A DNA stretch of 34,919 bases from a virus, in the IMG/VR virus record IMGVR_UViG_3300030102_001033, positions 1 through 34,919 of that record; one strand, written 5' to 3'. The stretch's first letter is position 1. Each line of letters starts with the position of its first letter. The notes below the pieces were generated by a model, which saw only the letters and a program-made list of their open reading frames with translations, was not told where the DNA came from and did not search any database. The translations under genes and the position numbers were made by a program. Below, piece by piece: positions 12,434-34,060 of the stretch.

Positions 12434-14552
12434 ATTCTTGTATGTAATACATAATTAAGTTTCTAGCATAAGCATTTTCATTTGGTCCACCAAATCTGTA
12501 AGTAAAATCGCCAGGCTTCAAACTACCTTGTGCTTCTCTGTTGCTGCCCGCTGGAGTAAAGTAAATTTCTCTTATAGGACTATTTGGGTCGCCTGGATTG
12601 ACTCTTTCAAACCTAACATTATCAATTAGGTTGCCTATATTTTTTGGATCTCCTGGTGAGAATAAACCTTGAAACCAATCTTTAAAATCTACAGATCCTT
12701 CTACTTCTACTGCTTGTGCAAATAACAAACCAGCTATACCTTTTAGAGAGTCTCTTGCAAAGTCTCCTTCTGTTTGTATTTCATATTTACCATCCTTGAC
12801 AACGAACTTAGGAGCCCCTGGTAAATTTTTTACTTGATTAAGAAGGTTAGATACCTTAGCTCTAGTCTCACCAGTAAAGGCTTGGTAATCTCCATCTTCA
12901 TCAAAAAGTAAAGGAATTAACTCTGCTTCAGCATCTATAAACTCTTGTGTTAGTTCTTGTCTATATTTTCTTTGGTCTCTTAGATAATTACCGTATAGTA
13001 TGTCAGTCTCTAGGGCTGTTTTGTCCATACTCATCTTTCTATCGTAAACACCCATGTACTTAAATAAAGCGTCTGCAAAATTTTGTTGTTTATCATACGC
13101 AGCTAAAACTATCGCTGCATCTTGGTAGGTAACGTTATTTGCTTGTGCTGTGCCAAAAGGTACTTTGTTTAAATCTTCTTCAGTTTCTACACCATATTTA
13201 GAAATAACATCTCTAAACCTATTTACCAAATCACCGTCTTTACTTATAGCTTCTATAGTTTCTTTATTATTATCAAAAAATGCTTGCACCTCTTCTTTAG
13301 TAGCACCATCTGTAAGTTCGCCGTTTAGTTTAAAAGAAGTAGAAGTGATTTCTGTAACAGGTTTAGCTGCTTCTAATTCATCTTGTAGTTCTTTACGCTT
13401 TGTTTCAGATAAATCAGGGTTAGTTAATTGTTGTTCAATGTCTGAACGTTTGACATCTACTTTTGCTTGTACTTTGTCTCTAGCAGTCTGTCTAGTAGCT
13501 GCGTCATCTTCTATGTTTTTGCTAACTCTATCAATTCTTTTTTGTTGTTGTTCAATTAACCTTTCTCTTTTCTTTTGTAGTGTAGATTTAACACGATCAT
13601 CTGCTGCGTCCATGGCACGTTTGTTATTTTCTAACTGAACTTGGCCAAATTTATAAGCGGTAGCAAATGATTTTCTAAACCCTTTACTCAAGCCTTGAGA
13701 TAACGTTTCAATTTCGCTATCAGACAAGATAGTTTCTGGTGTTAAACCACTAATAAGAGCTGCAGAGCTTTGCACTTCCGGAGAACTTGTGTCAACAACA
13801 CTAGAAAAAGGTTTAATTTCTCTTTCTTCTTCTATTGTCAAAGGTTGTTCTCCACCAGGCTTAGTCTCTGTTTCTCTTAAACGAGCTCCTAAATCTGAAA
13901 CTAGGCCTAACATAGCTTCATTGGCATCTTGTAGATTTATGCCTTCTGTTTTATCTATTTCGTCTAAAACCTCTCCTGCTTCTGCTATTGGATCTCCTGT
14001 TACTATGTCCGTTGGCCCATCTTGTTGTACACTCTGAGCTACTACTCCCTGCCCTAAATTAGGATTAGCTCTTTTTCTAAGTATGGCAACATTGCCTTGA
14101 ATTAAGTCTTCAAATTGAGTTTCATTTAAATTTGCTACTAGGTCATTAGGGTCATCAGTAGCAAGCCAAGTTTTTGGAGCTAAAAGTTTTGTGTCTGGTC
14201 TTCTAGTTAGTATAGTTTTTGTACCATCTTCATTATCCCTAAAGCCTTCTATGATACCTAACTTGTCCATGCCTTCTTGAGTATCGGTAAACTGTTTGAA
14301 TTTGTTAGACTGATTAAGAAGTTTTACAATTTGATTCTGATACTTATAGCCTGTGCTGTCTTTTTCTACAAGTTTATCAAAATTTACTCTACCCTCTTTT
14401 GTTATTAAACCATCAACAAGCAACTCATCAAAAAACTTACCATCTGCTACTTGTTGGTTTGCGTTTCTTTCAGCTGTTAAAAGTTCTTGCTGACGTTGTT
14501 GCCGTGTATCTGGGCCAAAAAGTTTTGCTAAACCGCCTGCTATATCAACCAT
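12414..14552 (-). CDS. Internal virion / ejection protein with coiled coil
   Basis: 712 residues, highly charged, with no signal peptide. A long helical coiled coil runs from about residue 305 to 395 (segments such as KSTLQKKRERLIEQQQKRI and LSETKRKELQDELEAA). The rest is mixed, with several acidic linkers. It begins at an ATG that shares an A with the stop of the preceding gene and ends inside the start of the giant 1780-residue gene. Position between a small gp14-like protein and the giant protein matches the second ejection protein of podoviruses (gp15-like role). That role is inferred from order, size and coiled coil; sequence similarity to T7 gp15 is not evident by eye. Confidence 0.75.
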   Translation of the reverse strand: MVDIAGGLAKLFGPDTRQQRQQELLTAERNANQQVADGKFFDELLVDGLITKEGRVNFDKLVEKDSTGYKYQNQIVKLLNQSNKFKQFTDTQEGMDKLGIIEGFRDNEDGTKTILTRRPDTKLLAPKTWLATDDPNDLVANLNETQFEDLIQGNVAILRKRANPNLGQGVVAQSVQQDGPTDIVTGDPIAEAGEVLDEIDKTEGINLQDANEAMLGLVSDLGARLRETETKPGGEQPLTIEEEREIKPFSSVVDTSSPEVQSSAALISGLTPETILSDSEIETLSQGLSKGFRKSFATAYKFGQVQLENNKRAMDAADDRVKSTLQKKRERLIEQQQKRIDRVSKNIEDDAATRQTARDKVQAKVDVKRSDIEQQLTNPDLSETKRKELQDELEAAKPVTEITSTSFKLNGELTDGATKEEVQAFFDNNKETIEAISKDGDLVNRFRDVISKYGVETEEDLNKVPFGTAQANNVTYQDAAIVLAAYDKQQNFADALFKYMGVYDRKMSMDKTALETDILYGNYLRDQRKYRQELTQEFIDAEAELIPLLFDEDGDYQAFTGETRAKVSNLLNQVKNLPGAPKFVVKDGKYEIQTEGDFARDSLKGIAGLLFAQAVEVEGSVDFKDWFQGLFSPGDPKNIGNLIDNVRFERVNPGDPNSPIREIYFTPAGSNREAQGSLKPGDFTYRFGGPNENAYARNLIMYYIQEYGKEDI

Positions 14553-15127
14553 TAGATTAACGCTCCTATTATCGCAGCACCTAAACCTACCATATTACTG
14601 TGATGTTGGGCTTTTGCATTTTTATAAGCTGCAGCTCTATTTGCGGCCATAGCAGAAGCATCTCCCAACCCGCTTAAGGAGTTTTGATTTACGCCTTGTC
14701 CAATACCTATAAGTTCATTTAGTAAAGCATTGTTGATTTGTCTTTGTTGTATCCTGGCATTATTAACAGTATTTACCATACCTAACTGTCCCCCTCTTTG
14801 TAAGGACCTTTGTTGTTGTTGCCTTTGAGCATTTGATAAACCAGCTCCTCCATATCTTTCTAAGTTTCTTTGTTGAACTTCTCCTGCGATTCTATTTTGA
14901 GTAGCTTGATCTTCTTGGGCTTGCCTAACTAGGGAATCATCATTTGTTAGATTTAATAAACGTTCCTCAAAATCTCTAAAATTATTTACGTAATCCATAT
15001 AGTCTTGTCTAGTTATGCCGGCAAAAGTAGCTTCTGGGTCATCAACATTTGGTAACCCAAGGCTACTTGCACCTTGATTATACTGACGCATATTAAAACT
15101 ACCTTGGTATAAATCTTCGTATAACAT
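14552..15127 (-). CDS. Small internal virion protein (gp14-like role)
   Basis: 191 residues, rich in Gln, Asn and Ala. The middle is a Gln/Arg-rich helix (RQQQQRSLQRGGQLGMV, IQQRQINNALLNEL), followed by an Ala-rich helix (ASAMAANRAAAYKNAKAQ) and a hydrophobic C-terminal tail GLGAAIIGALI that could enter membrane. A short Ala/Gln-rich protein with a hydrophobic tail, placed directly before the large ejection proteins, is typical of gp14-like pore components. Both its start and its stop overlap neighbouring genes as TAATG, so the ejection set is probably translated in a coupled chain. The gp14 equivalence is functional inference. Confidence 0.7.
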   Translation of the reverse strand: MLYEDLYQGSFNMRQYNQGASSLGLPNVDDPEATFAGITRQDYMDYVNNFRDFEERLLNLTNDDSLVRQAQEDQATQNRIAGEVQQRNLERYGGAGLSNAQRQQQQRSLQRGGQLGMVNTVNNARIQQRQINNALLNELIGIGQGVNQNSLSGLGDASAMAANRAAAYKNAKAQHHSNMVGLGAAIIGALI

Positions 15128-15711
15128 TATCTTCCGTAAAAACTCCCAACTGGTTTATTTTCGTCTTGTGGAGCATTAGGGTCTTCCTCTTCTTGGCCAA
15201 ACACCTTACCAAAACCTCCTAAGTCTTGTATCTTTTTTATCCCTGATACTGCTACATTTTGAAATGCCCCTACGTTAGCGTTTCTTCTTGCTTGTTTGGC
15301 TCTTGCAAACTGTAGTTGTTTTGTTGACTCAATACGTGCAGCTCTTGATAAACCTTGTTGTGCGTCCGCTTGCATGCCACGTGCATTTTTAAGAACGTTT
15401 ACTTGGTCGCCTCTCTGTGCAACTAGCCCTTGAGATCTACCTTGTAAAGCTTGAGCTCCAGCTGCAGAGGCCATATTAGCTGCCGTATCTACTGCTTGAG
15501 TTGCTTGTAAACTAGGTCTTGATAAGGCCTGCATGGTGTCTGCTTGTGCACGTCCGGTAGCAACTCCTTGGTAATTTTCTGTACTACTCCTATCCCGTAA
15601 CTCTTTTAACTTTGGTAAATATTTTTCTCTAAAATAGTTTTTTTCTGCTAAGGAGACGGAGGCAAGCGCTTTCTCTTGCTCACTTGCTTTAGTTTTCTTA
15701 GGTTTACTCAA
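15127..15711 (-). CDS. Ala/Gln-rich structural, probably internal virion, protein
   Basis: 194 residues starting at TTG 15711 after AGGAGAAAAG; no ATG in frame gives the same well-spaced ribosome site. The N-terminus is Lys-rich (SKPKKTKASEQ), the centre is a long Ala/Gln helix (TQAVDTAANMASAAGAQAL, RGMQADAQQGLSRAA), and the C-terminus is acidic and Asn/Pro-rich (QEEEDPNAPQDENKP). Composition and position match the other internal proteins. It overlaps the upstream gene by 8 bases and the downstream gene by TAATG. No catalytic motif is visible and I cannot assign a family. A virion-core role is the most economical reading. Confidence 0.68.
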   Translation of the reverse strand: MSKPKKTKASEQEKALASVSLAEKNYFREKYLPKLKELRDRSSTENYQGVATGRAQADTMQALSRPSLQATQAVDTAANMASAAGAQALQGRSQGLVAQRGDQVNVLKNARGMQADAQQGLSRAARIESTKQLQFARAKQARRNANVGAFQNVAVSGIKKIQDLGGFGKVFGQEEEDPNAPQDENKPVGSFYGR

Positions 15712-16138
15712 CTTTTCTCCTGTAAATTCGTGTATCTAAATCCCATCCATTCTTTACCGCGTACGATTCGAAAGCTGGTACGTTAGATTGTGCTTCTATA
15801 AACTTACAATCAAGCTGTTTAGCTACACTTTCTATCCATTCTTCATGGGCTAACCACTCATGTCCACCCTTTTCATAAGTATACGCTATCCACATATACA
15901 ATGTCTTGTCTTTTGTGTACCTATCTATTTCTATAGTAAATACTAAAAAACCTTTTAGAGAGGTAAACAAATATGCATTTTCGTTTACACACTCGCTGTA
16001 AACATCCTCAGGGATAAAGGTAAGAGTAGGATTATTCTTTAATATTTCGACTATGCCTGGTTTTACTTTGTCCCAACACTCTCGTATGTTACTAAAAACA
16101 GGTAACTCAGTAGTCGATCTCCTTTCCGTACTTTCCAT
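15704..16138 (-). CDS. GNAT-like phage protein (gp13-like)
   Basis: 144 residues. The pattern LFTSLKGFLVFTIEIDRYTK, LYMWIAYT, WLAHEEWIESVAKQLDC, EAQSNVPAFESYAVKNGWDLD and a final RIYRRKVE follows the strand/helix order of GNAT acetyltransferase-like folds. T7 gp13, a virion-assembly protein, has a comparable C-terminal half. No clear acetyl-CoA P-loop (Q/RxxGxG/A) is visible, so it may be a structural derivative rather than an enzyme. The ATG follows AAGGAGACGGT and lies inside the end of the upstream gene (32-base overlap). Position between connector genes and ejection proteins supports a role in core assembly. Confidence 0.6.
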   Translation of the reverse strand: MESTERRSTTELPVFSNIRECWDKVKPGIVEILKNNPTLTFIPEDVYSECVNENAYLFTSLKGFLVFTIEIDRYTKDKTLYMWIAYTYEKGGHEWLAHEEWIESVAKQLDCKFIEAQSNVPAFESYAVKNGWDLDTRIYRRKVE

Positions 16139-16781
16139 ACCGTCTCCTTGGCATTCCTATCCCTTTGTACTTAACAGTTCTTTTTACACCTAGGTCTCCG
16201 CCTCGGCCTCTCAGTTCCGCTTGTTTTACTTCTTGCGTAAACTGAAATAAATATTCTTGTGCGGCTCCTACGTCTGACCACTCTCTACTAGGCATACGTA
16301 AAAGTCTGTACAGAGCGCCATATATAATTGCATCTCTGTACGTGTTCGCAATAGTTGTATCTATATTATTAGAAGCCCTAGTAGGTTTTAGGGCTACACT
16401 TATTATAAGTTCTTTTGGTCCACTTGGTACCGGCACTACCCAGAAAGTAGTTGGTGTTTTTTGCAGATACACGTGAGGATTGCCGGTTCTGTTTCTCCAA
16501 TCTGGGTAGTTTAACTCTAGGCTACGAGGACTTATGGGATCCATATCGTTGCCATCGTACGTCATATATAAAATCTGATGTACTTCCGTACCGGTAGGTA
16601 TATCGAAATCATATTCAAATACACCAGCTATGGTGCTAAGTGGGTCTATGTCTAAAATAAAAGCTTTTGATCTTTCACAAAACTCTATTGTTGCAGAACG
16701 TATTGCTTGTTCTACTAAAGTATCTGGACAGAGAGGTACGTAAGGCAGTACTTCTTTTAGCAAAGAAGAATATGCTGCCAT
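16107..16781 (-). CDS. Head-tail connector / tail-tube-A-like protein
   Basis: 224 residues. An N-terminal helical segment (YVPLCPDTLVEQAIRSATIEFC) is followed by a beta-rich middle (FEYDFDIPTGTEVHQILYM; VYLQKTPTTFWVVPVP; LIISVALKPT), a helix around YRDAIIYGALYRLLRMPSREW, and a very basic tail (MPRRRYGKYGKEI). This order resembles gp4/gp11-type adaptor proteins that form the ring below the portal. The start follows AAGGTAGGTAACA within the end of the preceding gene, with only 2 bases between the two genes. The basic tail may contact DNA in the channel. The assignment rests on fold-like pattern and gene order. Confidence 0.68.
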   Translation of the reverse strand: MAAYSSLLKEVLPYVPLCPDTLVEQAIRSATIEFCERSKAFILDIDPLSTIAGVFEYDFDIPTGTEVHQILYMTYDGNDMDPISPRSLELNYPDWRNRTGNPHVYLQKTPTTFWVVPVPSGPKELIISVALKPTRASNNIDTTIANTYRDAIIYGALYRLLRMPSREWSDVGAAQEYLFQFTQEVKQAELRGRGGDLGVKRTVKYKGIGMPRRRYGKYGKEIDY

Positions 16782-16783
16782 TG

Positions 16784-17527
16784 TTACCTACCTTGCTGTT
16801 GCATCTGAGCTACCTGAGGAACCGCCCCAGTCCCTATATTAGATACAGGATCATTATTTGGGTCTAACATAGATGCAGCATTCCCGCCTTGTCCTAAACA
16901 ATTAAGGAAAAGTTGATAATGTGTTCCTGCTCTTTGCGCGTTCCCAGCGTATTCAGAGTCTTTTTGATATGCTCTAAACAACACATAATCCATAATAGCA
17001 TTCGCATATATATCATCCACTGAAATAGTAGCTGATGCATTTGCTAAATCGGTTGGTGAGTTAGAGAAAACAATCTCTACAAAAGCGTTTTGGCCATTTG
17101 CTACCCCAGGATAAACATAAAAGTTTCTTGGGTCGTCGTCATCAAAAATATAATGTTTAACAACGCTACCATGCGCTGCATCTCCTGAGACTGTTGGATC
17201 GTTCCAATCTGGCTCTTGTGTATTAAGAATGTCTACATTTACTATTCTAATTGCTCTTTTGCCTGTCGCATTGCTAGCAGCACTCGACATATTTCTAGTT
17301 AATTTTATTAAACGCAACCCACCAGAAGGTAAGGATTGTTTTGTACCTGTAACTAGTTGTACGTTAGAAGTAGTAGCTGAAGACTCTGGTCTATAGTTAA
17401 CGATCTCTCTTTGAGCATCATTTATATACCTAAGCAATTCGGCTTCTGGCCATCTGACACTAGTAGTGTCCTGCAGAATGTCTTTTACTCTGGCTAATAA
17501 ATTTGCTCCTGTTAGTGTCCCTGCCAT
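16784..17527 (-). CDS. Phage adaptor protein (DUF6682-like)
   Basis: 247 residues. The N-terminal pattern LLARVKDILQDTTSVRWPEA and LLRYINDAQREIVNYRPES is characteristic of phage adaptor proteins annotated as DUF6682 (family recall). A beta-rich middle follows (VVKHYIFDDDDPRNFYVYPG, VEIVFSNSPTDL), then a helical C-terminal half (YANAIMDYVLFRAYQKDSEY) and a Gln-rich end. It probably docks on the portal as a neck protein. It lies in the head-to-tail gene order after the capsid gene and is separated from the next gene by 2 bases. No enzymatic motif is visible. Confidence 0.72.
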   Translation of the reverse strand: MAGTLTGANLLARVKDILQDTTSVRWPEAELLRYINDAQREIVNYRPESSATTSNVQLVTGTKQSLPSGGLRLIKLTRNMSSAASNATGKRAIRIVNVDILNTQEPDWNDPTVSGDAAHGSVVKHYIFDDDDPRNFYVYPGVANGQNAFVEIVFSNSPTDLANASATISVDDIYANAIMDYVLFRAYQKDSEYAGNAQRAGTHYQLFLNCLGQGGNAASMLDPNNDPVSNIGTGAVPQVAQMQQQGR

Positions 17528-20313: not shown

Positions 20314-22419
20314 TTATTTACCTCCTGTTGGTTTCATGGCCGCAGCAGCTAGTTTGGCAGCAGCTGCAGTATCGCTTTGGTCTTTACGCATTGAGTTAGT
20401 CAATTCTGACAACTTCTCACGTAGTCCCAGTTCTTCACGTTTAGATTGAATTTTACTTTGTAATTCAGCAACCTTCAACTGTGGATCCATTTGTTCGTTT
20501 TGTGCTTTCGCCATGTTAAGCTCTGCAGAGGTTTGTAAGTTAGTAACTTCTGCTTCTAGCTTAGCTATCTCAAGCTGCGTGCTTCTGATCTGTGACTCCA
20601 TTTGGAATTGTTGTAATTGTATTTGTTCTTCTGATGGCGGTGCAGTGCCCTCCATTTGTCTGATTCTTTCTGCAATATCTGCTTTACGTGATAAGTGTGA
20701 GTACTCGACAATCATATCGTTTGGTATTGGCACCCCAACTCCTCTAAGTTCAATAGCTTCTGCAAACTGCATTTCATCAAAGTTATCCCTAGCTGGAGCA
20801 GTGCCAACAATAACGTCATACTCTCCAAGAGTTAAGTCATTTACAATCTCACCTTCTGGTGTCATTTCGTTTATTCTTAGTTTTTGTCTTGGTTTGAAGG
20901 GATCAGATTCATCTGTAATCTGTATTATACGTTCTTCTGTATAATAAGATTGGACCATATGTAATATTTTTTCTGCTAAGTATTGTCTAGTCTTAGCTAA
21001 ATTATCTAATGGCACTTGCAATAACATAGAGCCCCTGTTTTGTTTGGCTTGAATAGCAACACCAGAAACTTCTGGACTGTCCATACCGAGCATAGCTTCT
21101 GTAATACCACTTATTTGTTTAATATTTTGTGCTGCTTTCTGGCTAATCCTATCTAAACCTGTAGGTATTTGGTTTGGTGGTATCTTACCAGGAGGCGTAG
21201 AGCCACGGTTGTACTCTAATACGAGGCCAGTTTCCGCACCATGCTCTTCTAAATCATCTGCTGTCATACCGGATAGAGACCCGGACTCTACTATCCAACC
21301 ACTGTTAGCGGTTGTGTTTACAATATGCAGTTCTTGTGAAGAAATCTTGTTAAGTTGTTCTTGTGGAGAAAGTAAGTTTCGTACCATGCCAAATGGTTTG
21401 CCACGTCTAAAGTACGGAAAGTAAGGAACAATTGTAAAATGGTCATAAGGTGAAAAGTCATCAAACAGAACTACAGTATCAGCTGTCACTGTCCAACGGA
21501 CGCGTCGCATTTTTTTAGTAATTATGTCTAAACCAAATTCGTCAGCAAACTTTTCTCTTTTCTTTTTACCCCAAGCATTTGGTATTTTTCTTTTGTCTCC
21601 TGATACAGGATCAACATAATACATACAATCATCTAATTTATAATACTGCCTTTCTATAACTCTGATTGACCTAAGCATTCGTGCGTTCTCTGGATCTCCT
21701 GGGTATTGTTGTCCGTAATTGTGTTCGTCTGTATCTCCGTATCTTTCTTCTTCATACTCCATAGAGTCTGCACCAAGAGTAGTGCCAGTCTCTGCTAACA
21801 TTCGTAACTTATCTGCTTTGTCTTGCCCATAGGTTTCTTCTATCTCATCTATGCTCATCCACTTAGTTTCAAAGATTTCATTCCAAGTTCTTGGGTCATA
21901 GTGTTTTGCATCTGGATCAATAAGAATATCTAATGGATCTTTGGCTTCTATTTTTATCTCGCCTTGTACGTGCTCTTCGAAATCTACTCGCACATCAAAA
22001 TATCCACGGTCTTGTATTAGACCATCTGAAAATACTTGTTGTTCTACCCAATCTAGTTTGTTGTTATCTGCAATGTAAGCATATACTTGTGTTAACACAT
22101 CAGCTACGTCTTGTTCGCCGCCGCCTCTAGGTTTAAATTGTATATCTGCTTTCTTTGAACTCTGTTCAGCTAGAACTGCGTTAATGGTTGGTAAAATAGT
22201 ATTGATTGTTAAGGCTGGTCTGCCTTGGTCATCCAACATTTGCATATCAAAGTCGTCCCACTGTTCTCCTCTATAATACGCATCGCATTTTTTTGCCATG
22301 TGGATGTATTCTTCATGCCCGTTGTCTCGAGCTCGAGTGTAAGCATCAAATTGGCTTTTTGCTAGTGTTAGCTCTTCCGCTTCTTTTAAGGTTGTTTTTG
22401 GTTTCTTACTATATGCCAT
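20314..22419 (-). CDS. Portal protein (P22-like)
   Basis: About 701 residues from ATG 22419 (MAYSKKPK); a GTG at 22428 would add three residues and overlap the terminase gene by 8 bases. Visible portal features include YYRGEQWDDFDMQML, RPALTINTILPTINAVLAEQ, DPLDILIDPDAKHYDPRTWN, FGMVRNLLSPQEQLNKISSQ and SPEVSGVAIQAKQNRGSMLL. The last ~100 residues are a long helix (QFQMESQIRSTQLEIAKLEA and onward) that fits the barrel or coiled coil of P22-type portals. It forms the dodecameric DNA channel at one vertex and docks the terminase. It lies between large terminase and scaffold, as usual. Confidence 0.93.
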   Translation of the reverse strand: MAYSKKPKTTLKEAEELTLAKSQFDAYTRARDNGHEEYIHMAKKCDAYYRGEQWDDFDMQMLDDQGRPALTINTILPTINAVLAEQSSKKADIQFKPRGGGEQDVADVLTQVYAYIADNNKLDWVEQQVFSDGLIQDRGYFDVRVDFEEHVQGEIKIEAKDPLDILIDPDAKHYDPRTWNEIFETKWMSIDEIEETYGQDKADKLRMLAETGTTLGADSMEYEEERYGDTDEHNYGQQYPGDPENARMLRSIRVIERQYYKLDDCMYYVDPVSGDKRKIPNAWGKKKREKFADEFGLDIITKKMRRVRWTVTADTVVLFDDFSPYDHFTIVPYFPYFRRGKPFGMVRNLLSPQEQLNKISSQELHIVNTTANSGWIVESGSLSGMTADDLEEHGAETGLVLEYNRGSTPPGKIPPNQIPTGLDRISQKAAQNIKQISGITEAMLGMDSPEVSGVAIQAKQNRGSMLLQVPLDNLAKTRQYLAEKILHMVQSYYTEERIIQITDESDPFKPRQKLRINEMTPEGEIVNDLTLGEYDVIVGTAPARDNFDEMQFAEAIELRGVGVPIPNDMIVEYSHLSRKADIAERIRQMEGTAPPSEEQIQLQQFQMESQIRSTQLEIAKLEAEVTNLQTSAELNMAKAQNEQMDPQLKVAELQSKIQSKREELGLREKLSELTNSMRKDQSDTAAAAKLAAAAMKPTGGK

Positions 22420-22420
22420 A

Positions 22421-24064
22421 TTATGCACTCATTGCCGACTTCTTCTTCGGCCCTTTCGCTATCAATTCTAACCTATCTCTCCAAGAAGGTACATGCTCTG
22501 GAGCTTCATAAAAAGTAGCAAACTCCATCATCATAAGACCGACCCAGGCCAAAGCGTCCACTTGGTCATCATGCACGCCATTAGGAAAACGCAAAAGTTC
22601 AGCAACCATAGGCCCTGTCCATACAGAATCGGTTGGGAAATAAACCCTACCTTGTTGCATTCTACCTTGGATAGCTCTAGCTCTTGCTTCTTTATCACGT
22701 CGCCCTACTTTTAAATCTTTAAAATATGCAGAATGTAATCTACGCTCTGCCACACGTTTTTCTAAGAACGGACCAATGGCCATTTCTATATGTCCACGTT
22801 CTATCCCCACTATACCAGGCCTCCATTGTTCGTAAAGGTCTAATATTTTCTCCACGAGTTCGTAACCGTCATACTTTCCGCGAACTAAGTCGACTACGAA
22901 CATGTTATCGTACTCGTCGACCCCAACAACGACACCGACAGAATAGTCGTTTCTGTCCCGTTGTCCGATGGCCAGATCCCACGCACAATAATAACGCATC
23001 TTATCATACTCAACTTCATCTGGTTCAAAATATCTAATCATGTCTCTAGTAAAGTAATCACCTTCGTCTGATACTGGGTTTTGTTGATACAGAGCGGTCC
23101 AATCTCTAGGGCCTATAGCTTTTTGTATCATTTCTAAAGATTCGGTGTTGTACCTTTCTGGGTGCAAAGGTTCTCCCTGTTTTCTAAACTCTTCGTCTTC
23201 TTCTGCTATAGCTGGGTATTTTACTACCTCCCAATCATCAGCTCCGTTTTCGCTAGCCATCAATAACTTACCAGCTAGATCATCGTCATGCCACCTAGTT
23301 AAAATGACCAATATACCCCCACCAGGGGAAAGTCTTGTATAAGCGGTAGAGGTATACCAATCCCACGTGGCCTCCCTATTGTTTTCTGATTCTGCGTCTT
23401 CTCTGTTTTTTACCGGGTCATCAATTAAAAGTACGTGCGCACCTTTACCTGTAATACCACCACCAACACCAGCCGCTACGTAACCACCCATTTCAGTAGT
23501 TTGCCAAGACTCTACAGACTGAGAATCTTTGTCTAATTTTGTATTTTCAAAAATATTCTTATAATTTGGTTCTCTTAGCAATTGTCGTACCTTTCTAGAA
23601 AAACTCATTGCCAAAGAACCCGAATACGAACAACTTATGAACTCATGGCTAGGGTTACGTCCAAGATGCCAAGCAGGAAAGGCAACACTGGCTAACGTAC
23701 TTTTTCCATGCCTGGGAGGCATAAATAGCATTAATCTAGGGGATTTCTTGTCAGCAACGTCTTGACTAAACTTTTCTAGCCTTTTACAGACGTCTTTATG
23801 CACCCAACCCGCTTGGTAATCGGGATTAAACTTCTCAACAAACGGCAGCATACGTTTCCGTGCCAAAATACGCAAGGCGAGCTCTTGTTCAGCCCGTAAT
23901 TGGGCATTTTGCTCTTTTTTTGACGTTTTTTCTTGTTTTTGGGGCTCAGGAAGCTGATCTGCTTCGTCCGCCGCGCAGTAAACGCATAGTCCTTTAGGCA
24001 GGACTAAATTATCGGCTAAAAGTTTCTTGCACTTATAGCACTCTATCTTATTTTGGTCTGTCAC
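22421..24064 (-). CDS. terL: Terminase large subunit with N-terminal zinc ribbon
   Basis: 547 residues from GTG 24064. Residues 9-30 form a Cys4 zinc ribbon (C9-x2-C12, C27-x2-C30). The ATPase follows: Walker A MPPRHGKS at 115-122, Walker B VLLIDDP at 211-217, coupling motif LTRWHDDD near 255-262. The RNase H-like nuclease has D363 in CAWDLAIG, E422 in GIERGH and the HDDQVDALA motif at 498-506. It powers DNA packaging into the portal and cuts the concatemer. The N-terminal zinc ribbon is not part of the standard terminase fold and may bind DNA or the small subunit. The stop lies next to the portal start. Confidence 0.95.
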   Translation of the reverse strand: MTDQNKIECYKCKKLLADNLVLPKGLCVYCAADEADQLPEPQKQEKTSKKEQNAQLRAEQELALRILARKRMLPFVEKFNPDYQAGWVHKDVCKRLEKFSQDVADKKSPRLMLFMPPRHGKSTLASVAFPAWHLGRNPSHEFISCSYSGSLAMSFSRKVRQLLREPNYKNIFENTKLDKDSQSVESWQTTEMGGYVAAGVGGGITGKGAHVLLIDDPVKNREDAESENNREATWDWYTSTAYTRLSPGGGILVILTRWHDDDLAGKLLMASENGADDWEVVKYPAIAEEDEEFRKQGEPLHPERYNTESLEMIQKAIGPRDWTALYQQNPVSDEGDYFTRDMIRYFEPDEVEYDKMRYYCAWDLAIGQRDRNDYSVGVVVGVDEYDNMFVVDLVRGKYDGYELVEKILDLYEQWRPGIVGIERGHIEMAIGPFLEKRVAERRLHSAYFKDLKVGRRDKEARARAIQGRMQQGRVYFPTDSVWTGPMVAELLRFPNGVHDDQVDALAWVGLMMMEFATFYEAPEHVPSWRDRLELIAKGPKKKSAMSA

Positions 24065-28544: not shown

Positions 28545-28982
28545 ATGGGATTAGATGCTTATGCAGGCTTTCAGGTGCCACAACCTGAAAATGTAGAGCC
28601 AATCAATGAAGATGCGGTTTACGACACACTACAAGGCGACGATAACTTTTACTGGCGTAAACATGCCAGGTTGCAAGAATACATGCAACAGTTATGGCGT
28701 GTCAGAGAGTTTGGCGAAGATGCCAAACACTGGAGCGGACTAAGAATGGATGGCAAACATGACCTTGCCGAAGTTATATTCTTAGAAAAAGAAGACATCG
28801 AAAGATTGCAAGATTTAGTTGAAAACAACAACTTGCCTTTCTGCCCAGACGGTTTCTTTTGGGGACATCAGTTCCAAGAAGAATCAATGAAAGAGTATAA
28901 AGAACTCGACCTTAAGTTCTGTAAGCAAGCACTAAAGTGGCTTGATGAAGGTAAAAAGGTCTGGTACGACTGTTCGTGGTAA
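28545..28982 (+). CDS. Conserved small phage protein, MGLD...YWRK...GFFWG type
   Basis: 145 residues beginning MGLDAYAGFQ, with FYWRKHARLQEYMQQLW, VIFLEKEDIERLQDLVENN, a central LPFCPDGFFWGHQFQ and an ending WLDEGKKVWYDCSW. The order MGLD, YWRK, LP...GFF.G and a C-terminal Y-D-SW is a recurrent small phage family that databases sometimes label phosphoglycerate kinase without basis (recall). Function is unknown. It precedes the MoxR gene by 16 bases with a strong ribosome site. Confidence 0.78.
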   Translation: MGLDAYAGFQVPQPENVEPINEDAVYDTLQGDDNFYWRKHARLQEYMQQLWRVREFGEDAKHWSGLRMDGKHDLAEVIFLEKEDIERLQDLVENNNLPFCPDGFFWGHQFQEESMKEYKELDLKFCKQALKWLDEGKKVWYDCSW

Positions 28983-28998
28983 ATTATAGGAGGTAATA

Positions 28999-30015
28999 AT
29001 GCACACAATCAATCCACAAAATCTAATGAAAGAGTTAAAAGACTGTATCATTGCCGGCTACCCAGCTATGATCTGGGGTGGTCCAGGCATTGGTAAGTCT
29101 GAAATACCAGAACAGGTTGCACAAGAGTTAGGTGTCCCACTTATTGACTTTCGTGCTAACCTGTTCGACCCTGTCGACGTGCGTGGTGTGCCATACATTA
29201 AGCAACTCAAAGAGACAGGCAAACGTTTCACGTCATGGGCTGTGCCTGACGTGTTCCCTATCGCACAGCGAGACGGGGACCGTGGCATACTGTTCATTGA
29301 CGAACTGCCAACTGCACCACCAGCAACACAAAATGCATTCTTGCAATTGTTGCTGACTAAACAGATCGGTGAGTACAAACTCCCACCAGGGTGGGCTATT
29401 GTTTGTGCGGGTAACCGACTGACTGACGCAGCTGCAGTGTATCAAATGCCATCACCTGTCAGAAACAGGCTTGCTCACTACGAGCTTGAGCCAACACTTG
29501 ATGACTGGTGTGCATGGGCTTATCAGAACAACATCAACTCAGATGTTATATCGTTTATACAATACAGACCTAACTTGTTGTCTAACTTTAGTGCTGATGA
29601 GTATGCGTTCCCAACGCCACGTGCATGGTCTATGGTCAGCAAAAAGTTGCAAAGATCTAACACAGACCCAGAACGTTTGTTCTTCGGTGTTTCATCTTTG
29701 GTCGGTGACGGTCCAGCTGGTGAGTTTGTTGCATTCAAAGAGATTGCTGACAAGCTGCCTAACATTGACAACTTGATCAAAGACCCATCTACGTACAAGA
29801 AAGATGACAATCCAGCATTGTTGTACGCACTATGTACAGCTATTGCTTCTAGAGCAGAGGACAAGCTTATGGAAAACATTATGAAGTTGGCCAAGAAAGT
29901 CCCTGTCGAGTTCCAAGTTGTGCTAGTCAAAGGTTGTCTAGCTAAAAACAGAGAACTCAAGTCTCACAATGATGTACGTAAGTGGATCGTTGACAATGCT
30001 AACGTAGTTTTATAG
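28999..30015 (+). CDS. MoxR-family AAA+ ATPase
   Basis: 338 residues. Walker A GGPGIGKS at 27-34, Walker B ILFIDELP at 97-104, sensor Asn in CAGNR at 137-141, Arg-finger region PSPVRNRLAHYEL at 151-163, then a helical lid and C-terminal part. MoxR ATPases work with VWA-domain partners (RavA-ViaA, CbbQ-CbbO, NorQ-NorD) to remodel or load metal into target enzymes. Here the partner is encoded one gene away (30680-31780). The phage target is unknown. A MoxR gene is, as I recall, also present in HMO-2011-type phages. Start after ATAGGAGGTAATA. Confidence 0.93.
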   Translation: MHTINPQNLMKELKDCIIAGYPAMIWGGPGIGKSEIPEQVAQELGVPLIDFRANLFDPVDVRGVPYIKQLKETGKRFTSWAVPDVFPIAQRDGDRGILFIDELPTAPPATQNAFLQLLLTKQIGEYKLPPGWAIVCAGNRLTDAAAVYQMPSPVRNRLAHYELEPTLDDWCAWAYQNNINSDVISFIQYRPNLLSNFSADEYAFPTPRAWSMVSKKLQRSNTDPERLFFGVSSLVGDGPAGEFVAFKEIADKLPNIDNLIKDPSTYKKDDNPALLYALCTAIASRAEDKLMENIMKLAKKVPVEFQVVLVKGCLAKNRELKSHNDVRKWIVDNANVVL

Positions 30016-30023
30016 GAGGTTAT

Positions 30024-30683
30024 ATGAAAACAGTTAGATTATCTATGCAGTTGCAAGATGATATTCTTACAGCTGCTACTAAAAAGTACGAAAATGCCAA
30101 TCCAGAAAAAGAATACCCACAAGATGGTTATGCTGTTCTGCAAAGATTGGGCGTAGTAGACAAAACAATCAAGACTCAACAGATGTTCAAAGAAATCTGG
30201 ACTAGAGACTTGCCAATGCGAGAAATCGACAGAGTCATAATCAAAGCTACACAAGTAGAACCTGATGAAGACGATGAAGGCAACACACATGAAAGGCACA
30301 TGTCATACAGCTTGACTTGTCCACCAACTGATGTGCCTAGGTTCTTGGCTAGTTATGATGAGATTGAAATGGATGTGCCTGCTACCGATCCTACTATTGT
30401 TGAGTGCTATGGCATACAACAGTACAACAATGAAATCAAAACTAAGAAAAGAGCCTATCAGAGTAAACTCAGGGAAGTTATGGCTAGATTTAGTACCTTA
30501 AATCAGTTACTTAAAGCTGCTCCATACATACAAGACCTGGTGCCGCAAGAGAAGCTCACGAAAATGCATGAGAAAGACGATAGATCAGGCAGACGTGCAG
30601 CGCTTGCTGAAGTTGCTGACACAGAACTATCTGAGTTGCGTGAAACATTATTAGAAGATGCATTACTAGGAGATGATCAATGA
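30024..30683 (+). CDS. Unknown protein between MoxR and VWA genes; paralogue of 32380-33213
   Basis: 219 residues. N-terminus VRLSMQLQDDILTAATKKYE, an acidic middle (EPDEDDEGNTHERHMSYSLT), then a helical part and FSTLNQLLKAAPYIQDLVP, QEKLTKMHEK at 156-184, ending LLGDDQ. The 277-residue protein at 32380 has the same plan (VQMSNQLRDTISRNYKK; ITTLKRFVDEWPGGKELVP, EEYMQRMAKK; LLGDD), so the two are probably paralogues. The N-terminus resembles Nmad5-type phage proteins, a weak match. It ends in ATGA overlap with the VWA gene. It may be an adaptor or substrate of the ATPase. Confidence 0.82.
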   Translation: MKTVRLSMQLQDDILTAATKKYENANPEKEYPQDGYAVLQRLGVVDKTIKTQQMFKEIWTRDLPMREIDRVIIKATQVEPDEDDEGNTHERHMSYSLTCPPTDVPRFLASYDEIEMDVPATDPTIVECYGIQQYNNEIKTKKRAYQSKLREVMARFSTLNQLLKAAPYIQDLVPQEKLTKMHEKDDRSGRRAALAEVADTELSELRETLLEDALLGDDQ

Positions 30684-31780
30684 ATCCAATGTTCGTAAAA
30701 GCTAGATCAAGATTGCTGTTGGGTAATCCCTTCTTGGGTACCCTATGTCTGCGACAAAAGCCAGTTGAGTGGGATCAGCCCACCGGTGCTGTCGACGGCA
30801 AACATCTTTACTACAATCCAAAGTGGTTTGAGAAGTTGACAGAAATAGAACGTGAAGGCTTTCTTGCGCATGAGATCATGCATCTTGTGCTCATGCATCA
30901 CACGCGTAGACAAGAACGTAACCCACACAAATGGAACGTTGCAGCTGACTACGCTATTAACGATTATTTGATTGCAGAAGGTTTTATCCTGCCGAAAGGC
31001 GGGCTCGTGGATGATCAGTACGCTGACATGACTACCGAGCATATCTACAATGCACTACCGGAACCTCCTTCGGGATGGGACACTGTGTATGTAGACGGTG
31101 GTAAATGTGGTGGCGTGCTTGATCACCCCGATTCGGACGGTACCGCTGGCAAAGCTAGCGCTATCGAATCCGATTTGACTGTTGCTATCAACCAGGCAGC
31201 TGAGCAGGCCAAGGCCCAAGGCAAACTATCTGCTAACATGGAGACATTGATTTCTGATATCACAGATCCTAAGGTTGATTGGAAGAACGTGCTTGCGCGT
31301 TTCTTACGGTCCAACAACAAGTCTGACTTTACATGGGCTAGACCAAACAGACGATTTATCGGTTCCGGACTGTATCTGCCATCCTTGCACAATCCCTGTC
31401 TCGACGAGATTGCGATTGCAGTAGATACATCTGGTTCAGTATCCGAAGATGAGTTGACACAGTTCACTACAGAAACATCACACATATTGCATGAGCTCAA
31501 TCCTGAGCGAGTACAGTTTATACAATGTGATGCTGAGATTAACGATACTACTGAGTACACTCGAGAGGACCTACCTCTGCAAGTAGCATACAAAGGTAGA
31601 GGTGGTACAGCATTCTCACCTGTTATTGAGTATCTCAATGAAAACCATCCAAACATTGCAGCCTTGGTCTATCTTACTGACCTTGGCTCTGGTGATTTTG
31701 GAGACAAACCATCTTACCCAGTACTTTGGGTAACTACAGACTTAGAGGAGGCGCCTTATGGTGAAATTATCAAAATGTAA
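30680..31780 (+). CDS. VWA-domain protein with zincin motif (DUF2201-like)
   Basis: 366 residues. The N-terminal part has HEIMH at 64-68 (in LAHEIMHLVLMHH) and AADYAIN near 88-94, the metal-site pattern of DUF2201 putative peptidases. The C-terminal part is a VWA domain with a complete MIDAS: DTSGS at 249-253, T310 in GGTAF and D334 in LTDLGSGDFG. The family pairs with MoxR ATPases. The gene overlaps the preceding one by ATGA, and the next starts within it, so ATPase, unknown protein and VWA protein are co-translated. Both metal sites look intact. The substrate is not known. Confidence 0.9.
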   Translation: MNPMFVKARSRLLLGNPFLGTLCLRQKPVEWDQPTGAVDGKHLYYNPKWFEKLTEIEREGFLAHEIMHLVLMHHTRRQERNPHKWNVAADYAINDYLIAEGFILPKGGLVDDQYADMTTEHIYNALPEPPSGWDTVYVDGGKCGGVLDHPDSDGTAGKASAIESDLTVAINQAAEQAKAQGKLSANMETLISDITDPKVDWKNVLARFLRSNNKSDFTWARPNRRFIGSGLYLPSLHNPCLDEIAIAVDTSGSVSEDELTQFTTETSHILHELNPERVQFIQCDAEINDTTEYTREDLPLQVAYKGRGGTAFSPVIEYLNENHPNIAALVYLTDLGSGDFGDKPSYPVLWVTTDLEEAPYGEIIKM

Positions 31781-31937
31781 GCAACACATCAAAGAGTTTG
31801 GTGTATCTGTGTTGACCGGCACAGCAGTGTTGTTTCTATTATTCGGTCTTGCAACTAGTATTCAGTACTCGTTGCTTCTGCTCGGTGTCGGGGTCGGCCT
31901 CGGGTGTATATTTTATCTTATATGGAGGATGTTATGA
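31758..31937 (+). CDS. Small two-helix membrane protein (59 aa)
   Basis: 59 residues from ATG 31758, after GAGGAGGCGCCTT. A basic N-terminus (MVKLSKCKQHIKEFG) is followed by two membrane helices at about 15-34 (GVSVLTGTAVLFLLFGLATS) and 37-56 (YSLLLLGVGVGLGCIFYLIW). It overlaps the end of the VWA gene by 23 bases and the next gene by ATGA. Two short helices with a charged N-terminus resemble holins, but the same tight linkage to the VWA gene suggests a membrane anchor for the MoxR-VWA system. Too short to name. Confidence 0.68.
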   Translation: MVKLSKCKQHIKEFGVSVLTGTAVLFLLFGLATSIQYSLLLLGVGVGLGCIFYLIWRML

Positions 31938-32089
31938 ACCCAAGTATAGTATCGGCAGTTACAACTGCACTATGGATTATTATCGAAGCAATTCAATTTG
32001 CTTACATGGCCTATCTTATGTGGCTAAGGAGGAATGATGTTACTAGTAGGCATACTGTCCGCGCTAGGTCTGCTTTTGCTAGCGCTTAA
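31934..32089 (+). CDS. Small one-helix membrane protein (51 aa)
   Basis: 51 residues from ATG 31934, overlapping the preceding stop as ATGA; TGGAGGATGTT precedes it. A GTG at 31904 in the same frame would be inside the previous gene and is less likely. One membrane helix at about 8-30 (VTTALWIIIEAIQFAYMAYL), then a basic tail (WLRRNDVTSRHTVRARS). The last 53 bases overlap the start of the 113-residue membrane protein, an unusually long overlap. Function unknown; it is part of a three-gene membrane cassette. Confidence 0.6.
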   Translation: MNPSIVSAVTTALWIIIEAIQFAYMAYLMWLRRNDVTSRHTVRARSAFASA

Positions 32090-32378
32090 AGCCGGTGGTC
32101 GTAAGACTATCGGTAACGATATCTTTGTTGACGTACTTATCACCGTCACGCTGATGGTCTGCTTCTACGGCACCTTTAGCGGTATGGCTGCAGCCATGGT
32201 TGGTGGTCTGTGTGCGTCTATTGTCTTGTTTATTCTCAAAAAGACTATGACACACGAGGTATTGGAAGTTAAGAAAGTAAATAAAACAATTATCAACAAG
32301 CCGTTCAATGTCAAAATGCCAACTGTCAAAGCAGGATGGCGTAGAGTAGAACCGACTTGGAATTACAGGAGAAAATAA
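32037..32378 (+). CDS. Three-helix membrane protein (113 aa)
   Basis: About 113 residues from ATG 32037; an ATG at 32034 is only one base from the ribosome site AAGGAGG and less favourable. Three membrane helices at about 2-18 (LLVGILSALGLLLLALK), 30-46 and 48-67 (SGMAAAMVGGLCASIVLFIL), then a basic cytoplasmic tail ending VKAGWRRVEPTWNYRRK. It follows the two smaller membrane proteins and precedes the second paralogue by 1 base. Candidate roles: membrane scaffold of the MoxR-VWA complex, or a holin-like pore. No family recognised. Confidence 0.72.
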   Translation: MLLVGILSALGLLLLALKAGGRKTIGNDIFVDVLITVTLMVCFYGTFSGMAAAMVGGLCASIVLFILKKTMTHEVLEVKKVNKTIINKPFNVKMPTVKAGWRRVEPTWNYRRK

Positions 32379-32379
32379 T

Positions 32380-33213
32380 ATGGCTAGTGTACAAATGTCA
32401 AATCAGTTGCGTGATACTATTTCACGTAACTATAAAAAACAACTTCATGCTGCCTACAGACAGTCACACAATGTGCAACCTGCTGTAGATAAAATTGTTG
32501 AAGCTATGCAAACTAACGTATTCAAAGAGTATGTTGATCTTTCTACGAAGCTTGAGCTTATTGCTAAACAGCTTACTAAAAAGTATCACGACAGTAAATC
32601 ACAGTATGGACAGTATCATATGAACTTCCAAGAACAGCCTATGACTAGGCCTAGGGAAGAGATGGGTATTGTATGCAATCCTAACAGACCAAGCAGTGAC
32701 AACATGACTTACTCGTATCACTGGCACATGCCTGATACGCATCAAGAAGCACGCCAAGATTACAAGAACGGCGTGGAGTATGTTGACGGTGATGTAGGTG
32801 TACAGATTAATGATTTACCAAATTATTATTGTCCTGTTAAAACACAAGTAACGTACATGACAGGCTGGGGCAGCGACGAACGTTACTGTCCACATGCTGA
32901 TAATGCTGTGTTTATTGTTACAGACCCAGAGATATGTGAAGCTCTTATGCCCATAGGCGAAATAGAAACAAAAGTTAATGAAGATCTTAGTAAGTTTAAT
33001 GAATACATAAAAAGAATTACTACACTTAAAAGATTTGTTGACGAGTGGCCTGGTGGTAAAGAACTTGTACCAGAAGAATACATGCAGCGTATGGCTAAAA
33101 AGGTTGTAAGAGCCAAATCATCTAAAGTTACGCCAGCGCAAATAATACCTGATGAGTTGAAAGAACAAATGAATGAGGTAATATTAACTAATAAACTATT
33201 GGGGGATGACTAA
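32380..33213 (+). CDS. Unknown protein, paralogue of 30024-30683
   Basis: 277 residues. N-terminus SVQMSNQLRDTISRNYKKQL; a middle insert with possible metal ligands (YSYHWHMPDTHQEARQDY; NYYCPVKTQVTY; DERYCPHADNAVFI: two Cys and several His); and the shared C-terminal plan (ITTLKRFVDEWPGGKELVP at ~213, ending LLGDD). The Cys/His-rich insert is absent from the 219-residue paralogue. It is translationally coupled to the next gene by TAATG. Its place after the membrane cassette links it to the MoxR-VWA operon. Function unknown. Confidence 0.82.
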   Translation: MASVQMSNQLRDTISRNYKKQLHAAYRQSHNVQPAVDKIVEAMQTNVFKEYVDLSTKLELIAKQLTKKYHDSKSQYGQYHMNFQEQPMTRPREEMGIVCNPNRPSSDNMTYSYHWHMPDTHQEARQDYKNGVEYVDGDVGVQINDLPNYYCPVKTQVTYMTGWGSDERYCPHADNAVFIVTDPEICEALMPIGEIETKVNEDLSKFNEYIKRITTLKRFVDEWPGGKELVPEEYMQRMAKKVVRAKSSKVTPAQIIPDELKEQMNEVILTNKLLGDD

Positions 33214-33401
33214 TGACTGAACTTATGCAAGAAAAACAGTGGGAATATGACACCACTAAATCTTACGAGTGCAACATGCAAAGCTGGATAGACGCTGTGT
33301 ACTGGGAACGTAAAAAGTATGACGAACGTCAACTAACTGAATCTGAAGCTAAAATGAAGTTTTCAGAATATTATCCAAGGAGTCAATATGGGAAGACTTA
33401 A
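33213..33401 (+). CDS. Small unknown protein (62 aa)
   Basis: 62 residues, acidic and aromatic: MTELMQEKQWEYDTTKSYEC, NMQSWIDAVYWERKKYDERQ, ending EYYPRSQYGKT. The ATG shares an A with the TAA of the preceding gene. No motif recognised; mostly helical. Its 3' end overlaps the next gene by 14 bases. Confidence 0.7.
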   Translation: MTELMQEKQWEYDTTKSYECNMQSWIDAVYWERKKYDERQLTESEAKMKFSEYYPRSQYGKT

Positions 33402-33585
33402 ATCTGCAATGATGGATGTTGGTTATGAGGCTATGGAGAATGGTATACAACAGACAGCAGATAGACACTCTATGTCAGAGGATGATGTTAAGTTTTGTAT
33501 CTTGTTTGCATGTGCATATGACGGCACGTGGGAACAGTTTGTTGCAGAAGGCAACATGGATAAATCTAATAAACTATTGCACTGA
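33388..33585 (+). CDS. Small unknown protein (65 aa)
   Basis: 65 residues: MGRLKSAMMDVGYEAMENGI, QQTADRHSMSEDDVKFCILF, ending NMDKSNKLLH. Helical with one Cys. The ribosome site CAAGGAGTCAAT lies in the end of the preceding gene. It is the last gene before the convergent terminator. A hairpin ATGCCA-AGGAG-TGGCAT directly follows its stop. Confidence 0.68.
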   Translation: MGRLKSAMMDVGYEAMENGIQQTADRHSMSEDDVKFCILFACAYDGTWEQFVAEGNMDKSNKLLH

Positions 33586-33652: not shown

Positions 33653-34060
33653 TTACGATACGTATACCCACAATTCAATAGTACCAGTACCACCGCCACC
33701 AGGCGAGGCTGTTACTTTCATGTCAATAGTATCGTCAGCTGTGTATTCTTTTGGTGCTACAGCAGCATCTTTCTCATCAACACCACCTGTTCTTCCAATA
33801 ATAGAACCATCGATATAGTAGTCAACGTCTCCGCCATCTCCTATATCAAATTCTATTGATGAACCGGAATCTAGGTCGTCGACCTTGATGATTACGTCAT
33901 GCACAGTTTCACCAGAGAATACGTCAACTAATTGAAGGATATCGCCAGATGCTAATGCAGTTGTAGCTTCAAACTTAGCGTATCTTACGCCCATAGCTCC
34001 GCTTGGGAACGGTTTGAATGACTGATTACCAGCTACCATATCTGATTTATAAGTTGCCAT
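33653..34060 (-). CDS. Probable head-decoration / virion surface protein
   Basis: 135 residues of beta-rich sequence: MVAGNQSFKPFPSGAMGVRY, FEATTALASGDILQLVDVFS, VDYYIDGSIIGRTGG, YTADDTIDMKVTASPGGGGT, ending IELWVYVS. Proteins with this plan (a YYIDGS...Gx strand, then YTADDTIDxxVxA and a C-terminal strand) are found as small abundant virion proteins in many marine phages. The ribosome site is TGGAGAAGCAAT. It is alone on the minus strand between plus-strand genes, with its own promoter and a 5' hairpin, which fits independent high-level late expression. Confidence 0.75.
   Translation of the reverse strand: MATYKSDMVAGNQSFKPFPSGAMGVRYAKFEATTALASGDILQLVDVFSGETVHDVIIKVDDLDSGSSIEFDIGDGGDVDYYIDGSIIGRTGGVDEKDAAVAPKEYTADDTIDMKVTASPGGGGTGTIELWVYVS

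Follow-up and report, generated by a model that had tools for sequence, protein, structure and literature searches.

MoxR-VWA genes of a tailed-phage lineage are linked to Nmad5-like paralogues with a conserved C-terminal tail and to three small membrane proteins

MoxR-type AAA+ ATPases paired with a VWA protein have been described in both phages and bacteria. In the N4-like group, gp24 and gp25, which encode a MoxR-like ATPase and a vWFA protein, belong to the core genes (PMC4193335). In jumbo phages, Iyer et al. (2021) described a group 2.2 in which MoxR accompanies a vWA protein with an N-terminal metallopeptidase, for which they proposed a role in virion assembly (PMC7824862). In structures of the bacterial NorQD pair, the VWA protein sits within the MoxR ring and is turned as ATP is consumed, and the metal ion-dependent adhesion site (MIDAS) has been proposed as a client contact (PMC13036017). 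RavA and ViaA bind lipids of the inner membrane (PMC9489729) and act on respiratory complexes (PMC10585395). The MoxR-VWA pair itself is already known from N4 and jumbo phages and is not special to the phage considered here; it belongs to the core of the N4-like phages and is present in jumbo and cyano phages, and we found no established tailed-phage function for it in the literature. Here we analyze a cassette at positions 28999-33213 of IMG/VR record IMGVR_UViG_3300030102_001033, a tailed-phage fragment whose whole length of 34,919 bases is referred to below as the window. The cassette had been predicted to be a six-gene unit; it comprises seven genes, each open reading frame (ORF) lying at its expected place:

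28999..30015, plus strand: MoxR-type AAA+ ATPase, 338 amino acids (aa), N4 gp24-like, with Walker A GGPGIGKS and Walker B LFIDE.
30024..30683, plus strand: NmA, Nmad5-like, 219 aa, C-terminus ELRETLLEDALLGDDQ; its stop codon overlaps the VWA start (ATGA).
30680..31780, plus strand: VWA/zincin cochaperone, 366 aa, N4 gp25-like, DUF2201_N plus DUF2201, with HExxH and MIDAS intact.
31758..31937, plus strand: TM1, 59 aa with two probable transmembrane helices; 23-nucleotide overlap with the end of VWA.
31934..32089, plus strand: TM2, 51 aa, with a single hydrophobic helix that has conserved E and Q residues; its start overlaps the end of TM1 (ATGA).
32034..32378, plus strand: TM3, 114 aa, with roughly three hydrophobic helices; membrane part conserved, basic C-terminal tail variable.
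32380..33213, plus strand: NmB, second Nmad5-like paralogue, 277 aa, C-terminus ELKEQMNEVILTNKLLGDD; missing in 4 of 42 relatives.

IMG/VR was scanned with VWA, NmA and NmB profiles built from this lineage, the best 80 matches being taken for each. The scans gave at least 69 DNA-distinct loci, of which 42 hold the block inside the contig. MoxR, NmA, VWA, TM1, TM2 and TM3 occurred together in all 42, and NmB was present in 38 and absent in four. Two layouts were seen, i.e., MoxR-NmA-VWA-TM1-TM2-TM3, optionally followed by NmB (25 loci), and TM1-TM2-TM3-MoxR-NmA-VWA-NmB (17 loci), so that TM1-3 shift as a block and always stay beside MoxR-NmA-VWA. Every locus missing one of the six core genes touches a contig end. 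Many of the contigs are close relatives, and the 42 loci are therefore not 42 independent events. A scan started from TM3 found, among the matches listed, no TM3 apart from MoxR and VWA inside a contig; two of its loci have an NmB-like, not an NmA-like, gene between MoxR and VWA. Among the matches listed in a scan with a broader VWA profile, there was likewise no VWA without the rest of the set. In three members that lack NmB (L159-L161), an extra gene of 193-200 aa and of unknown function lies between NmA and VWA.

Beyond this lineage the picture changed. Relatives of the VWA protein were found in 687 of 50,697 phage records and relatives of MoxR in 809; none of the 687 VWA-bearing records matched NmA at E≤1. 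Phages N4, S-TIM5, G, phiFa, XC38, D519 and a Vequintavirus have MoxR-VWA and gave no Nmad5 match. The six-gene set is thus confined to this phage lineage. The prediction that the genes form one system holds within the lineage, with NmB as a non-obligatory member, and fails in the neighborhood survey outside it.

The three small membrane proteins of the original prediction were borne out as hydrophobic ORFs under purifying selection. TM1, TM2 and TM3 are regarded as real genes because they are hydrophobic, are preceded by Shine-Dalgarno-like sequences and have ratios of nonsynonymous to synonymous substitution rates (dN/dS) of 0.03-0.27 against four relatives. Position 31934 was a better start for TM2 than the GTG at 31904. 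The ATGA and longer overlaps within the cassette suggest, as read from the sequence, translational coupling. Small hydrophobic ORFs also adjoin MoxR or VWA in N4 (gp23, 56 aa) and phiFa (75 aa), their likeness to TM1-3 being positional, and no such ORF was found beside MoxR or VWA in S-TIM5, D519 or XC38. The predicted membrane attachment draws its support from the gene linkage to TM1-3.

That linkage might have a simpler cause, namely that a MoxR-NmA-VWA unit and an unrelated membrane trio, exclusion or holin-like, are neighbors by history and share an operon for timing. The position of TM1-3 with respect to MoxR does differ from one layout to the other, and N4, S-TIM5 and XC38 show no TM1-3. 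Furthermore, a TM3-like protein is found among unnamed small ORFs of Rhizobium Autographiviridae, with no MoxR or VWA annotated nearby. We nevertheless consider this explanation improbable, given that no separation was seen in 42 DNA-distinct contigs despite rearrangement, nor any in the TM3-started scan.

Both proteins of the central pair were present as predicted, on the evidence of profile matches and residue alignment. MoxR matched phrog_1297 (2.8e-93) and PF00004 (24.4 bits, cut-off 21.2), and scored below the cut-off of 27 with AAA_3 (18.6 bits) and bpMoxR (18.8 bits); a VWA gene is adjacent to it. Across 13 aligned rows, one of which is a non-MoxR row (L038), G32, D101, R157 and R208 were invariant and K33, S34, E102 and N139 near-invariant; the residues expected of an AAA+ ATPase at the Walker A, Walker B and sensor/arginine positions are in place. 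The VWA protein matched PF13203 with 172.1 bits (cut-off 23.2) and PF09967 with 93.2 bits (cut-off 26.4). Its HExxH (H64, E65, H68) and MIDAS (D249, S251, S253, T310, D334) residues were invariant among 14 aligned phage VWA proteins, including those of N4 (gp25) and phage G, as was H73, which might be a third zinc ligand. The PHROG label for this protein, 'HNH endonuclease' (phrog_1314), was rejected because the Pfam domains and motifs show DUF2201. DUF2201 VWA proteins carry the same label in PHROGs and across many phage records, apparently through misannotation. The dN/dS values of MoxR and VWA (0.05-0.09) were lower than those of NmA (up to 0.22) and NmB (up to 0.46). The cassette proteins contain no beta-propeller domain of the kind that forms the third component of MoxR-vWA-beta-propeller ternary conflict systems, in keeping with the bpMoxR score below cut-off. 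No linked client metalloenzyme such as those of CbbQO, NorQD and RavA-ViaA was recognized among them by Pfam or PHROG. No target is apparent for metallation, one of the two activities that the prediction named for bacterial MoxR-VWA pairs.

NmA and NmB, predicted to be an unknown protein and its paralogue, were confirmed as paralogues by BLASTP (31% over 122 aa, E 9e-10) and by profile-profile comparison (E 2.8e-10 over the C-terminal 81 columns). Their scores with PF18757 (Nmad5) were 25.7 and 18.9, respectively, and since both lie under the Pfam cut-off of 27 we call them 'Nmad5-like' only. At E≤0.01, PF18757 matched 14 of 20 NmA relatives (best 2.5e-7, over most of the NmA length) and five of 21 NmB relatives. 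The matches of NmA in a fold search of BFVD included two proteins annotated as Nmad, with E 1.4e-4 and 1e-3 and a TM-score of only about 0.4. Against isolated phages, NmA had no match at E≤1 and NmB had weak matches only, to Jilinvirus Nmad5-like proteins. Within the lineage, identity to the window protein falls to 34% for NmA relatives and 26% for NmB relatives, and the middle parts diverge strongly. Nmad5 proteins at large occur widely in phages, in many cases close to genes for replication or thymidylate synthase, and a few Schitoviridae carry one kilobases away from MoxR-VWA. The view of Nmad5 as a DNA modification protein seems to come from gene context.

The region that NmA and NmB have kept in common is a C-terminal helix with an acidic LLGDD end (LREVLLEDALLGDD and LKEQMNEVILTNKLLGDD). 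Of 202 windows of 18 aa in NmA, the best conserved (rank 1) lies in this tail; in NmB the tail ranked 7 of 260, and rank 1 fell to the TTLKRFVDEWPGG motif. When the tail ending was searched for in the window and in the loci of the first set, essentially only NmA and NmB were recovered, plus one spurious minus-strand ORF. NmA still has a related end where NmB is absent. Nmad5 proteins of other phages, including the Schitoviridae with unlinked MoxR-VWA, end in LNxxIGIP; the beginnings of the two endings can be aligned, whereas the LLGDD end cannot. The tail was accordingly rejected as a universal Nmad5 feature as regards LLGDD and accepted as regards its first half. Nine Nmad5 proteins that we compared have a common TTxKxLxExWPE-like motif and mostly an LNxxIGIP-like end. 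In AlphaFold models of NmA and NmB (mean predicted local distance difference test score 78) a folded body was followed by final residues of low confidence, and in that of NmB a flexible linker led to a separate tail helix. Being conserved yet apparently flexible, the tail suggests a docking motif.

The place of NmA between MoxR and VWA was compared with bacterial loci. The closest cellular relatives of the VWA protein (up to 39% identity) also have MoxR, with one extra gene between the two. In about ten bacterial loci, a gap of about 0.9-1.3 kb separates MoxR from VWA and mostly holds a gene of 280-355 aa with a weak DUF3150 match (best E 6.5e-4, below cut-off). Profile comparison found no kinship of this gene with NmA or NmB, and a search of the bacterial VWA loci for NmA, NmB and TM1-3 gave no match. 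Since bacteria hold an unrelated DUF3150-like gene in NmA's place, the arrangement may be read as suggesting that the middle gene is an exchangeable client or adaptor slot, Nmad5-like in phages and DUF3150-like in bacteria. The triads MoxR - DUF3150-like - DUF2201 VWA (L323-L331, L336) come from Acidobacteria, Acetobacteraceae, Desulfatitalea and others, and may be either cellular or prophage genes.

The genome setting was read in a 63.8-kb relative (G007), in which the cassette is followed on the same strand by DNA polymerase A, a primase-like protein, a PD-(D/E)XK exonuclease and an SNF2-type helicase. The cassette opens this rightward replication operon and lies outside the structural block, a setting that resembles the position of N4 gp24/gp25. 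In the window, the major head protein, portal and large terminase are all on the minus strand. The portal and terminase were nearest to those of KPP25, phiR18, phiA008 and MW202615; this fragment, whose nearest portal and terminase are not N4-type, does not place with the N4-like phages (Schitoviridae). A search of phage records with the window at the DNA level gave no match, and a tRNA search of the window found none. A search of the relatives for the RNA polymerase family PF00940 was silent, likewise in controls, and is hence uninformative.

These positions bear on a role in virion assembly or maturation, in which the MoxR-VWA chaperone and its peptidase would fold or cut virion proteins, with NmA and NmB as scaffold-like proteins or virion clients. 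The original prediction allowed for such a role, which had already been proposed for jumbo-phage MoxR-vWA/peptidase pairs (PMC7824862). The Acidianus two-tailed virus pair P618/P892 was studied by Scheele (2011), as cited in PMC3466262, and in roseophages the genes of some virion proteins lie close to gp24/gp25 (PMC4193335). One minus-strand virion-type ORF (33653-34060, phrog_8455) lies 3' of the cassette; this single gene inside a rightward early operon recurs in G007 at 22256-22666. However, the cassette sits among early and replication genes, with PolA nearby and on the strand opposite to capsid and portal, and N4 gp24/gp25 are middle genes (PMC4193335). Its place at the head of the replication operon weakens this role, which would also leave three membrane proteins unexplained, and we regard it as doubtful.

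A setting of DNA base modification, in which NmA and NmB would be modification-associated and MoxR-VWA would insert a metal or assemble a modification complex, is suggested by the Pfam name of the Nmad5 domain and by YuA and some Schitoviridae, whose Nmad5 adjoins deoxyuridylate hydroxymethyltransferase or thymidylate synthase. Neither thymidylate synthase family (PF00303, PF02511) was found in the window and 10 related contigs of up to 64 kb, which speaks against a YuA-type hypermodification pathway, and thymidine hypermodification was rejected as the setting. Moreover, no catalytic motif is evident and NmB is dispensable, making base modification the least credible of the alternatives and very improbable.

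Alternatively, MoxR-VWA might act on a host membrane or replication complex in a takeover of the host or its replication, with NmA and NmB not as clients but as specificity adaptors or anti-defense factors, whose fast evolution would reflect an arms race. NmB is the fastest-evolving gene of the cassette, which lies in an early operon, and RavA-ViaA work at the inner membrane (PMC9489729) and on respiratory complexes (PMC10585395). Mutation of Nmad5 lets Dhillonvirus escape the Tmn defense, but deletion of nmad5 gave no escape (PMC11846954). Nmad5 is the Tmn trigger and the anti-Tmn protein is another gene (PMC11846954), so that Nmad5 as an anti-Tmn protein was rejected. No host target is known, and the conserved tail would need another reason. 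Takeover is, in our estimation, unlikely.

We favor a phage MoxR/VWA remodeling machine that has clients or adaptors dedicated to it, and give a probability of roughly 0.4 to the reading that, near the membrane and early in infection, it holds NmA and NmB by their tails and remodels or clips them. The MoxR ring, with VWA seated inside, would grip NmA or NmB by the C-terminal tail, an acidic residue of which might serve as MIDAS ligand, or the tail might enter the ring; ATP would then be spent on remodeling or clipping them. TM1-3 would bring the complex to the inner membrane, and NmA and NmB could there encounter a target of host or phage origin at an early stage of infection, in parallel with replication. 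The tail/MIDAS and membrane proposals are drawn by analogy to NorQD (PMC13036017) and RavA/ViaA (PMC9489729). At the level of sequence, support comes from the 42/42 linkage, the gene overlaps, the conservation of the tail and its limitation to NmA and NmB, the swap of the bacterial middle gene and the dN/dS contrast. The machine is supported; its client, membrane link, target, location and every contact are what we infer. A fuller version, a membrane-anchored ATPase-peptidase machine that recognizes Nmad5-derived partners by an LLGDD handle and in which the exchangeable middle gene decides what is acted on, is a speculative and rather unlikely extension.

Several points weigh against the favored reading. 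In other phages MoxR-VWA is used with none of these partners, and TM1-3 could have an unrelated function and be traveling along. Conservation of the tail may serve folding or dimerization, or be simple inheritance by both paralogues, and its first half is common to ordinary Nmad5 ends. Fold searches of the PDB returned nothing better than E 0.39 for NmB and no match that stands out for NmA (best Z 4.1, to unrelated helical chains), and neither can therefore be assigned to a biochemical role.

Further conserved genes flank the cassette:

28545..28982, plus strand: conserved 145-aa gene, usually directly upstream of MoxR (first layout) or of TM1-3 (second layout).
33213..33585, plus strand: two small genes of 62 and 65 aa, both conserved, usually 3' of NmB, outside the core.

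Two other loci of G007 were noted. The minus strand of L172 encodes, at 11898-16963, a 586-aa CHASE2-adenylate/guanylate cyclase, a FecR-domain protein of 384 aa and a CsgG of 272 aa; together they make up a membrane signaling/secretion set of bacterial type within a phage contig. At 8402-10246 of L173 there is a 614-aa fusion of glycosyltransferase 25, a PLOD-type glycosyltransferase and a 2OG-Fe(II) oxygenase, a composition that recalls collagen lysine hydroxylase/glycosyltransferases.

The VWA partner in NorQ/NorD, CbbQ/CbbO and RavA/ViaA is not known to be of the DUF2201_N metallopeptidase type. These systems resemble the cassette in combining a MoxR ring with a MIDAS-bearing VWA cochaperone, at the inner membrane in the case of RavA/ViaA; unlike it, they are bacterial, have known clients and lack paralogous tailed partners. 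P618/P892 is likewise a virus-encoded MoxR-VWA chaperone pair but belongs to an archaeal virus, has a role in extracellular tail growth and lacks a peptidase domain (PMC7824862, PMC3466262). The jumbo-phage group 2.2 pair has MoxR plus a vWA fused to a metallopeptidase, as here, and the passage that describes it mentions no Nmad5-like or membrane partners (PMC7824862). Nmad5 itself (PF18757, phrog_1965) is like NmA in the PF18757 match over most of NmA, and viral Nmad5 models were among the fold matches of NmA, whereas NmA and NmB differ in their sub-cut-off scores, their C-terminal end and their linkage to MoxR-VWA, which is a new context for the family behind Tmn sensing. N4 gp24/gp25 form a homologous adjacent pair in an early/middle position with the same HExxH and MIDAS, at about 28-31% identity; TM1-3 are absent there, and no Nmad5-like gene lies between the two or next to them. 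What is new here is the fixed MoxR-NmA-VWA-TM1-3 set and the LLGDD tail kept in NmA and NmB while the rest diverges. Unlike the lone N4 pair, this synteny-bound lineage names candidate clients (NmA and NmB), a specific putative contact (the tail with MIDAS) and a possible location (the membrane).

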